44,952 bases of DNA from positions 1 to 44,952 of the forward strand of contig WTIW01000049.1 in the NCBI GenBank assembly GCA_011526385.1. Direction: 5' to 3'. This DNA is from Pelagibacteraceae bacterium (lineage in GTDB: Bacteria; Pseudomonadota; Alphaproteobacteria; Pelagibacterales; Pelagibacteraceae). The notes below the pieces were generated by a model that did no database searches, was not told where the DNA came from, and worked only from the letters and a program-made list of their open reading frames with translations. This document shows, in pieces, positions 10,543-13,397 of the stretch (position 1 is the stretch's first letter; each line of letters opens with the position of its first letter). Made by a program: the position numbers and the translations under genes.

Positions 10543-11676
10543 ATGAAAAGTATTGCAATTATTGGAGCTGGAATTTCTGGTTTATATCTCGCAAATCTTT
10601 TAGAAAAAAACAAATCTTATTCTTATAAAATTTTTGAAAAAAAACCTTCATTAGATCTTAGTGATGGATACGGTATACAATTGTCAGTAAATAGCATTAA
10701 TCTTCTAAATAAAACTGGATTTCAAAAAATGAATGCAAGGGATGTATATTTTCCAAAAAAAGTAAATTTTTTTGATGCAAAAGTACTAAAAAAGATATGT
10801 GATATTGACTTATCTCAGTTTAACTTTGAGAATAACAGGTACACAACATTAAAAAGATCAAAACTAATAGAATTTTTATTAAGCAATATACCGAAAGAAA
10901 AAATAAATTTTAATTCAGATCTTGTTGATATTAAACAACATCAGAAATTAAACTTATTTTTTAGAGATAATCACAAAGAGGAGTTTGACTATATAGTAGC
11001 GGCTGATGGAGTTTATTCTAGGACTAAAGAAATTTTATTTAAAAAAGAAGGTCTTCCCAAGTATTTTAATTCAATTGCATTAAGAGGGAATATTCATAAC
11101 TTCAAAGATTTAGACATTTCATTATATCTAGGGCCAAATTTTCACTTTGTTATTTATCCAATCAATCAAAATAACGAATTTAATTTTATATCAATAATAA
11201 GGAAAGAATTAATTGAATCCGAAATTTCAAATAGAAATCTATTTAATGATGAAAGTTTTACAAATAAATTGATGAAACAGATCTCATCAAAATCTAATTT
11301 AAATTTAACTGAAATAGTTAAAGATATAAAATGCTTTCCAATTTTTGTGAGTAAAAAAATTCAAATACCTAGTTATAAAAACATCTTTTTAACTGGCGAT
11401 GCTTTTTTTTCTTTTCCTCCTTCTTTTGCACAAGGAGCATCACAATCGATTGAAGCAGCACATGATATTTTTAATGATTTAATAGATAATTCATCAAATT
11501 ATTATAAAAAAAGAGTTTTAAAAACTAAACAGATTAATTCTAGATCTTCAACCAATCATTTTGCGTTTCATCTTGCAAATCCACTAAATGTTTTTTTTAG
11601 AAATATATTTTTAAAATATCTTTCGAAAAATAGAAAATTTTTGGAAAATTATTTAGGTAAAATTTATAAAAACTAA
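10543..11676 (+). CDS. FAD-dependent monooxygenase (UbiH/salicylate hydroxylase-like)
   Basis: IAIIGAGISGLYLANLLEK, DYIVAADGVYSRTKEILF, FLTGDAFFSFPPSFAQGASQSIEAAHD. Confidence 0.82.
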   Translation: MKSIAIIGAGISGLYLANLLEKNKSYSYKIFEKKPSLDLSDGYGIQLSVNSINLLNKTGFQKMNARDVYFPKKVNFFDAKVLKKICDIDLSQFNFENNRYTTLKRSKLIEFLLSNIPKEKINFNSDLVDIKQHQKLNLFFRDNHKEEFDYIVAADGVYSRTKEILFKKEGLPKYFNSIALRGNIHNFKDLDISLYLGPNFHFVIYPINQNNEFNFISIIRKELIESEISNRNLFNDESFTNKLMKQISSKSNLNLTEIVKDIKCFPIFVSKKIQIPSYKNIFLTGDAFFSFPPSFAQGASQSIEAAHDIFNDLIDNSSNYYKKRVLKTKQINSRSSTNHFAFHLANPLNVFFRNIFLKYLSKNRKFLENYLGKIYKN

Positions 11677-12746
11677 GCTCTTGGTCTTAAACGTTGTCTT
11701 AATTCATCAATAGGTTTTAGACTATTTCCTACTTGATAATGCCAATAAGTCCAACCATTGCAGCTTTCTGCGCCTAATATTTGAGCTGCAACTTTATGAA
11801 TAGATCCTTCATTTTCTTTATGTTTTATACTGCCATCAACCATAACTTTTGCAAAAACTTTTTTCTTTTGGTCATAAATTTCTGTTCCAGGTTTAATTAC
11901 ACCTAATTCTATTAATGAGCCAAAAGGTACCCTTGGTTTTGATTTGTTGTTTTGAACTGTATCTAAATATTCATCCTGGATAACTTTAGTATTTTTTATC
12001 CTCTTATTTGCAGCCTCAAAATATTTTTTTTCTTTTTCTATTCCAAAGTAAGATCGCCCTAATTTTTTAGAAACCACAGCTGTTGTACCCGATCCCAAAA
12101 AAGGATCTAAAATAAAATCATTCTTATTTGAGGAAGCTAATACCACTCTATGCAGTAAAGCTTCTGGTTTTTGAGTTGAATGAACTTTTATTCCATTGTC
12201 TTTTAATCTTTCTTTACCGTTACATATTGGCAAATTCCATGTAGATCTCATTTGCAAATCATCATTAAATGACTTCATTGATTGATAATTGAAAGTATAT
12301 TTTGATTTTTTACTTTTTGATGCCCAGATCAATGTTTCGTGAGCATTAGTGAACCTAGTACCTCGGAAATTCGGCATAGGGTTATTTTTATTCCAGATTA
12401 CGTCATTTAAAATCCAGAAACCAAGATCCTGAATTATTTTGCCAACCCTAAATATATTGTGATAGCTACCTATAACCCAAATAGACCCATCTTTTTTTAA
12501 AACTCTGTTACATTGTTCTAACCATTCATATGTAAATGTGTCATAAGATTTGAAACTTTTAAACTGATCCCATTTATCATCCACTGCATTAACCTTAGAT
12601 CTATCTGGTCGAATTAAACTGTTTTGTAATTGTAAATTATACGGTGGGTCTGCAAAAATTAGATCAAATGTTTCATCTGGAATTTTTTTTAATTCTTTTA
12701 AGCTGTCTCCATTAATAATTTTGTTATGTAAATTTTTTGCAACCAT
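11673..12746 (-). CDS. ccrM: CcrM-type adenine DNA methyltransferase (predicted GANTC specificity)
   Basis: DPPYNLQLQNSL, FLGSGTTAVV (motif I), C-terminal RAMA-like domain ending WTYWHYQVGNSLKPID; adjacent to rnhB as in other alphaproteobacteria. Confidence 0.92.
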   Translation of the reverse strand: MVAKNLHNKIINGDSLKELKKIPDETFDLIFADPPYNLQLQNSLIRPDRSKVNAVDDKWDQFKSFKSYDTFTYEWLEQCNRVLKKDGSIWVIGSYHNIFRVGKIIQDLGFWILNDVIWNKNNPMPNFRGTRFTNAHETLIWASKSKKSKYTFNYQSMKSFNDDLQMRSTWNLPICNGKERLKDNGIKVHSTQKPEALLHRVVLASSNKNDFILDPFLGSGTTAVVSKKLGRSYFGIEKEKKYFEAANKRIKNTKVIQDEYLDTVQNNKSKPRVPFGSLIELGVIKPGTEIYDQKKKVFAKVMVDGSIKHKENEGSIHKVAAQILGAESCNGWTYWHYQVGNSLKPIDELRQRLRPRA

Positions 12747-12759
12747 TTTTTATAAAGTG

Positions 12760-12788
12760 ATTAGACTCCAGGGTGGATTCTACGTCAA
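12760..12788 (-). promoter_or_regulatory. candidate sigma70 promoter of ccrM (TTGACG-17-TCTAAT, minus strand) with two GANTC sites in or overlapping it
   Basis: -35 at 12788..12783, -10 at 12765..12760, exact 17-bp spacer, 13 bp between -10 and ATG. Confidence 0.55.
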
Positions 12789-12805
12789 CCAGAGATTGAA
12801 AAAAA

Positions 12806-12851
12806 TGGACTCTATTTGTTGTGAGTTTTAGCTTGGACTCAATATGTTGTG
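12806..12851. repeat. direct repeat pair TGGACTC[T/A]AT[T/A]TGTTGTG (12806-12823 and 12834-12851)
   Basis: 16/18 identical by eye, 28-bp period, each carrying a GACTC site; second copy lies in the rnhB 3' end. Confidence 0.75.
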
Positions 12852-13397
12852 TATAGGTCTAAAGCTTTTCCGATGGTGTTTAGAAATGCCAAACTTCTTA
12901 ATGGCTTGCAAATGTTTTTTAGTTCCATATCCAGCATTTTTATCCCAAGCATATTTTTTATACTTTTTTGACATTTTTGTAATTAGCCGATCTCTAGTAA
13001 CTTTAGCTATTATAGATGCTGCTGAGATTTCAGATATTTTCTGATCTCCTTTAATGACACACTTAAGTTTGTATCCTTTCATATCTGGTATTTTATTCCC
13101 ATCAATCAATGTTATTGATGGCTTTGCTTTAAGTTTTTTTATTGATCTCTTCATAGCCAATAAACTTGCATTTAAAATATTTAATCTTTCAATTTCCCTT
13201 AAAGAGGCAGATCCTATGCTCCAGATAGAATTTTTCTTAATATATTTTTCTAAAATATTTCTTTTTTCTTTTGAAAGTTTTTTCGAGTCTTTAATCTTGC
13301 TCTTATCAATATTTTTTTTAAATATTACCGCAGCCGCATATACTGGCCCAACTAAACTCCCCCTTCCAACTTCATCAACCCCAGCTATTTTTCTCAT
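12828..13397 (-). CDS. rnhB: ribonuclease HII
   Basis: IAGVDEVGRGSLVGPVYAAAVI; DSKKLS; SIIAKVTRDRL. Confidence 0.96.
   Translation of the reverse strand: MRKIAGVDEVGRGSLVGPVYAAAVIFKKNIDKSKIKDSKKLSKEKRNILEKYIKKNSIWSIGSASLREIERLNILNASLLAMKRSIKKLKAKPSITLIDGNKIPDMKGYKLKCVIKGDQKISEISAASIIAKVTRDRLITKMSKKYKKYAWDKNAGYGTKKHLQAIKKFGISKHHRKSFRPIHNILSPS

Follow-up and report, generated by a model that had tools for sequence, protein, structure and literature searches.

A predicted methylation-sensing core promoter upstream of ccrM in Pelagibacteraceae, with GANTC sites at conserved positions

The ccrM promoter of a Pelagibacteraceae bacterium is probably a methylation sensor for the enzyme that it makes, most likely read by the GcrA-sigma70 polymerase, in an ancestral arrangement kept in SAR11. 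It was analyzed in a stretch of 44,952 nucleotides (contig WTIW01000049.1, hereafter the window), where ccrM occupies 11673..12746 on the minus strand and encodes a GANTC adenine methyltransferase of 357 aa (PF01555, 7e-70; RAMA, 2.5e-17). Its product aligns over its full length with C. crescentus CcrM (6pbd, E 1.3e-139) and has the architecture of CcrM-type orphan enzymes, i.e., an N6_N4 methyltransferase domain and a C-terminal RAMA-type DNA-recognition domain. In line with an orphan methyltransferase devoid of a partner restriction enzyme, no endonuclease match was found among the ccrM neighbours scanned. The gene is adjoined by a FAD-binding protein gene and by its upstream neighbour rnhB (RNase HII; 12828..13397, minus strand; PF01351, 6.7e-41), beyond which lies a gene of the uracil-DNA glycosylase family. 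GANTC is reported to be methylated in other Pelagibacter (PMC9516812), and a ctrA ortholog was reported to be absent from Pelagibacter (PMC2877005, PMC7987155).

A first-pass annotation of this DNA had listed four GANTC sites upstream of ccrM, and all of them are present (GACTC at 12764, GATTC at 12776, GACTC at 12808 and GACTC at 12836). The background of one site per 350-400 bp given with them was wrong. Indeed, GANTC is avoided in the window, with 51 occurrences vs. 118 ± 9.5 in dinucleotide shuffles, and the proper background is therefore about one per 880 bp. GANTC avoidance has been reported for the class Alphaproteobacteria (PMC3973325), and the complete genome G012 of the same genus (1.34 Mb) contains 1642 GANTC vs. 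3450 expected from base composition and 2547 from a Markov estimate. Among the 383 GANTC found in 334 kb sampled from the own genome, the only cluster of four in 77 bp is the one upstream of ccrM, and no such cluster occurs in G012. Under a Poisson model, 0.11 clusters of this density would be expected per 1.08 Mb genome, with P = 2.4e-6 for a given 77-bp stretch. Window depletion, uniqueness in the 334 kb and absence from G012 rule out a chance origin. The annotation had named two findings that would speak against the cluster, namely equally dense clusters elsewhere and a lack of the sites in close relatives; such clusters proved uncommon in the genome sample, and the sites are conserved in aligned ccrM upstream regions.

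The gap between rnhB and ccrM (12747-12827, 81 bp), both genes being on the minus strand, is predicted to hold the core promoter of ccrM, with TTGAC as the -35, TCTAAT as a non-consensus -10 and a spacer of 17 nt. This architecture was deduced from 73 distinct same-genus ccrM upstream regions, aligned without gaps on TTGAC. The -35 box TTGACG (12783..12788, minus strand, as are all the elements below) has its TTGAC invariant in 73/73 and is common to class-wide ccrM promoters. The putative -10 hexamer (12760..12765), 17 nt after TTGACG, reads TCTAAT in 71/73 and TCTACT in 2/73. A first GANTC, hereafter site T (GAGTC, 12764..12768), lies at the upstream edge of the -10-like box GAGTCTAAT, with which it shares bases, and is found in 72/73 promoters. 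Site S (GAATC, 12776..12780) stands 3 nt after TTGAC in the -35/-10 spacer, at about -28 to -24 in the predicted register, and is found in 69/73. Both thus lie inside the predicted -35/-10 region of a sigma70-type promoter, whose -10 register is uncertain, and they are 11-12 bp apart, i.e., about one helical turn. Site U (GAGTC, 12808..12812) is located upstream of the -35, and a GANTC is present there in 43 of the 73 promoters. On the minus strand, the order is therefore TTCAATC-N4-G-TTGAC, a 15-nt stretch with GANTC 3 or 4 nt after TTGAC, GAGTCTAAT, about 13 nt and the ATG. The left half TTCAA (71/73) forms with the -35 an overlapping palindrome, TTCAA-N7-TTGAC (12784..12800).

A consensus promoter scanner reported no promoter in the ccrM upstream region, because TCTAAT has C instead of A at position 2. 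The -10 could instead be read as TAATCA (12758-12763; TAATNN), with a spacer of 19 nt. If transcription begins near 12753, as predicted, the leader would be about 7 nt long. The distance between the -10-like box and the ccrM ATG is just 13 nt (12747-12760, minus strand) and is similar in same-genus relatives; hence, the ccrM mRNA would be nearly leaderless. No TTAA occurs in 12747-12827, and no TTAA-N7-TTAA CtrA box is found at the -35. A promoter of the CtrA-activated type was accordingly rejected, the palindrome having equal spacing but different half-sites. Regarding the position of the cluster upstream of ccrM, three sites do lie in the gap, but the one at 12836..12840 (minus strand) falls within the end of rnhB, whose stop codon is at 12828-12830, in the frame I-L-S-P-S-stop. 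With a GANTC in 32/73 relatives and a location inside rnhB, it was set aside as a promoter element and is probably incidental. The four sites are not equivalent: two belong to the predicted core promoter, one is upstream and partly conserved, and one is in rnhB. The first-pass annotation had missed the overlap of the two best sites with the core promoter, the rnhB location, the class-wide layout and the encoded GcrA.

Changes in each column were counted on a 48-taxon ccrM tree. Among the 69 promoters holding site S, the N base is A in 36, C in 25, G in 5 and T in 3, and the offset from TTGAC is 3 or 4 nt. On the tree, its G, A and T did not change and its C changed once, while five changes occurred at N. 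By comparison, flanking columns changed 4 to 15 times, with 14 and 15 changes for the two preceding bases and 8 for the following one. Since S takes four bases at N and shifts by one position yet G, A, T and C hold, GANTC itself is under selection. Such a pattern would result from constraint on the methylation site but not on the bases around it. Site T shows no change on the tree, and its N is invariantly G (GAGTC in the 72 promoters), so that within the genus it is not separable from promoter constraint. Class-wide, N of the -10 site varies (GACTC, GAATC and GATTC).

The layout is also found outside the genus. All 16 promoters read from the sister family carry the -10 site, placed 14 nt after TTGAC, and 11 of them carry the spacer and upstream sites as well. 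Within the own family, the -10 site is retained in genus g7, the spacer site in g6 and g8, and both in g10, g15 and g17, while g13 and several g16 genomes lost both core-promoter sites and retained ccrM and GcrA. One MAG (G149) carries two ccrM genes (G149:C5:41710-42759 and G149:C21:6554-7597) with promoters of the g10 and g7 types; as its contamination is 4%, this probably reflects mixed binning. In a class sample of 83 families, with one genome per family, the strict pattern TTGAC-N2..5-GANTC-N4..7-GANTC, located at most 300 bp upstream of ccrM and on the same strand, was found in 29/83 genomes, against about 0.003 predicted by how often it occurs elsewhere. Of the 15 class-wide loci that have a site equivalent to T, all but one place it 14 nt after TTGAC, N being variable. 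The succession GANTC, TTGAC, N3, GANTC, N6 and GANTC at the -10 is visible by eye across the class, e.g., GATTCcaaaaagctaTTGACggcGAGTCcgggctGACTCagatt in L244. Besides, TTGACGNCGANTCN5TGACTC gave at least 120 matches in GTDB contigs; among the matches listed, 109 were upstream of ccrM, 5 were in truncated stretches and 6 were elsewhere. The matches listed were mostly from Rhodobacterales, with others from Novosphingobium (Sphingomonadales), Micavibrio and Rhodospirillales, and 97 of their 109 ccrM promoters had an upstream GANTC within 20 bp. In the same 109 listed promoters, the hexamer that begins with the final base of the third GANTC shows A as its second base (109/109) and T as its sixth (105/109), as a -10 box should. 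Altogether, the GANTC/TTGAC layout is suggested to be ancestral to much of Alphaproteobacteria. The fixed, class-wide core-promoter architecture is apparently new, autoregulation being of a known kind; no prior description of it was found in a literature search of partial coverage.

A wider double-GANTC promoter regulon in SAR11 was rejected, only ccrM fitting in the complete G012 genome. Of ten other same-genus genomes, a set to which G012 belongs, nine have no double-GANTC match except the ccrM promoter. GANTC overlapping -10-like words showed no obvious excess upstream of G012 genes, as judged without a formal control. Across the class, a double-GANTC promoter is also found at a second gene: 20 double-GANTC matches not linked to ccrM were fetched (L272-L291; G241, G209, G205, G228, G273, G289 and others), most of them directly upstream of a DivIC/FtsB-like septum gene, identified by eye from its translation, with the consensus TTGAC-N3..5-GAATC-N5..7-TGATTC. 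In the sister SAR11 family, the DivIC/FtsB gene of L316 (G073) keeps two GATTC just upstream of its start, while no double-GANTC promoter of ftsB was found in the copies examined from the own genus.

GcrA, already known to read methylated GANTC at sigma70 promoters and the most likely reader of the ccrM promoter sites, is encoded in the own genome (G000:C11:2274-2702; PF07750, 2.1e-33; 143 residues from the HMM match, P0001). Its residues 1-49 and 97-142 match chain G of 7ye1, the solved C. crescentus GcrA, and correspond to the DNA-binding and sigma-binding domains. GcrA is encoded in 102/121 relatives. No GANTC was found in the gcrA promoter of the own genome. GcrA binds sigma2, works through it and accelerates the formation of open complexes at methylated promoters (PMC7403470). 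When ctrA P1 is fully methylated, GcrA protects the stretch from -35 to -10, and when it is hemi-methylated the protected stretch is shorter (PMC3667746), the GANTC of ctrA P1 lying near -29 (PMC4287350). Furthermore, a prediction covering 13 alphaproteobacteria placed ccrM among the core GcrA targets (PMC7987155). The extended motif of Caulobacter GcrA, YGAKTCG, is not matched by the spacer site (GAATCC) or the -10 site (GAGTCT); as Brevundimonas GcrA targets lack it (PMC7987155), YGAKTCG is not a general requirement. Two points count against GcrA as the only reader. Among the 29 motif-bearing genomes, 7 have no PF07750 match, one of them being a single-contig genome with a completeness rating of 100%, and no association was seen between the motif and GcrA presence (22/29 with the motif vs. 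49/54 without it, Fisher p = 0.10). Conversely, some SAR11 genera have GcrA but lost the sites; g13 and several g16 genomes being in this case, a co-loss of GcrA with the promoter GANTC was not seen.

Other explanations of the cluster were considered. The annotation had pointed out that all four sites sit in TGGANTCW, which is correct on one strand, and had suggested that an additional protein reads this word. Besides this 4/4 fit, about 10% of the GANTC in the sampled own genome are in TGGANTCW. However, the context was kept at just 3/32 rnhB sites, 6/43 U sites and 17/69 S sites of the relatives, being largely retained only at site T (53/72), and a relative whose CcrM is 93% identical (L032) has it at 1/4 sites. 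On the ccrM tree, flanking columns freely changed 5-15 times vs. 0-1 in GA/TC, and the genome-wide count, a check proposed along with the suggestion, gave 73 TGGANTCW vs. 114 for the reversed pattern, i.e., no enrichment. As the word is unconserved even in the nearest relatives, it lends no support to such a protein, whose existence is hardly credible. The accompanying proposal of a dense autoregulatory methylation switch in a streamlined genome fared better: the cluster is dense and conserved and GANTC itself is selected, while TGGANTCW recognition has to be dropped. Autoregulation by methylation is thereby partly supported as the best explanation of the dense conserved cluster. The GANTC could also be inherited, slowly changing promoter sequence that does not serve as methylation sites. 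The -10 site of the own genus, fixed even at N, could on its own be just that, and some genera have lost the sites. For the spacer site this is contradicted by the four bases tolerated at N and the shifting position of an otherwise constant word, and the N of the -10 site varies class-wide, in DNA that otherwise avoids GANTC; plain inheritance is thus very improbable.

The true regulator might instead be a further protein binding TTCAA-N7-TTGAA/C, with GANTC merely modulating its binding. Outside GANTC, no block is more constrained than the palindrome, which is conserved as strictly as the -35 and has columns -12 to -6 unchanged on the ccrM tree. TTCAA-N7-TTGAA/C recurs in ccrM promoters of SAR11 genera (L189-L213), moving between three positions, namely the -35, the spacer and the start region, with TTCAA-N7-TTGAA of other genera lying at the -10 or just downstream of it, and in g8 it is flanked by GANTC at both ends. 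These features make it a putative operator of a further factor. However, it is missing where the GANTC layout is retained, both in the sister family and in those class-wide promoters that were examined, and it is not enriched genome-wide: with 17 occurrences at spacing 7, within the 7-27 found at other spacings, a palindrome regulon was rejected. Primary control by such a protein is therefore quite unlikely. A similar block, TTCAATC-N5-TTGAC, was observed at G012:C1:291785, about 67 bp upstream of a gene with a purN-like start. Finally, methylation could act directly on the sigma70 polymerase and dispense with GcrA, promoter recognition being weakened or changed by N6-methyladenine in the spacer and at the edge of the -10, in a plain negative autoregulation. 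The bases common to site T and the -10-like box and the motif-bearing genomes without detectable GcrA (7/29) would fit, as would the Agrobacterium gcrA promoter, which is less active when its GANTC are methylated, an effect that persists in E. coli modified to methylate this sequence (PMC11514494). On the other hand, a direct effect has no obvious need for the upstream and spacer sites, yet both are conserved, and GcrA is found throughout SAR11. Although judged unlikely, this direct effect is a live rival.

In the preferred reading, GcrA on the sigma70 RNA polymerase would read the adenine methylation of the sites at a weak core promoter. Replication would bring the sites from the fully to the hemi-methylated state and switch ccrM on, until CcrM re-methylates its own promoter and switches ccrM off. 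For a maintenance methylase, no loop would be simpler than activation by hemi-methylation, which also agrees with ctrA P1. Methylation effects of both directions are known, ctrA P1 being active when hemi-methylated and ftsZ when fully methylated (PMC8116508). For this reason, the proposed sign, with hemi-methylation as on and full methylation as off, is held with a confidence little better than even. In G012, ccrM is about 190 kb from the GC-skew minimum, i.e., roughly 28% of a replichore, and the distance between ccrM and dnaA is nearly constant, at about 260-280 kb, in seven complete SAR11 genomes (G012, G123, G137, G146, G155, G163 and G183). From these distances, ccrM is probably replicated fairly early, and a long hemi-methylated period would follow. 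The GC-skew minimum of G012 lies between ccrM and dnaA, about 92 kb from dnaA.

The Caulobacter ccrM promoter is CtrA-activated and has its GANTC sites in the leader, whereas those of ccrM in the window are in the predicted core promoter, which has no TTAA-N7-TTAA box. The two are alike in that control through methylation of its GANTC sites is very probable for C. crescentus ccrM (PMC3973325), while the predicted GcrA control of ccrM is reported to have been lost in Caulobacterales (PMC7987155). A closer parallel for site S is C. crescentus ctrA P1, with its GANTC near -29 in the spacer, a comparable place, and, on methylated DNA, a GcrA footprint that spans -35 to -10 (PMC3667746, PMC4287350). 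Unlike ctrA P1, the target here is ccrM itself, additional GANTC are present at the -10 edge and upstream, and Pelagibacter is reported to have no ctrA. The predicted core GcrA regulon likewise lists ccrM for 13 species including Ca. Pelagibacter ubique, but the scoring ignored site position (PMC7987155); the fixed spacing, the -10 overlap and the sampling of 83 families are added here. The Agrobacterium tumefaciens gcrA promoter also combines dense GANTC (6 in 250 bp), a cell-cycle regulator and repression by methylation (PMC11514494), although the gene is different, no shared spacing was shown and the effect occurs without GcrA.

Tentatively, and with the odds rather against it, the layout could be an ancestral, geometrically fixed epigenetic switch of Alphaproteobacteria that existed before ccrM came under CtrA. 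It would be the main promoter of its type left in SAR11, for which no CtrA is reported, and the CcrM loop there would chiefly regulate its own enzyme and report replication directly, hemi-methylation being the on-signal. The CcrM timing model derives from Caulobacter, where CtrA drives ccrM. SAR11 bacteria, which are extremely abundant in the ocean, keep CcrM, GcrA and GANTC methylation though they are reported to have no CtrA, and a self-sensing promoter offers a concrete, testable answer to the question of timing. With its fixed spacing, it is also a natural promoter for the structural study of the GcrA-sigma70 polymerase reading methylated spacer and -10 sites. As this promoter type is common to Rhodobacterales, Sphingomonadales and others, it may be the arrangement of Caulobacter that is derived. 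The layout shared by SAR11 with distant Alphaproteobacteria suggests an old self-regulating switch that senses freshly copied DNA.
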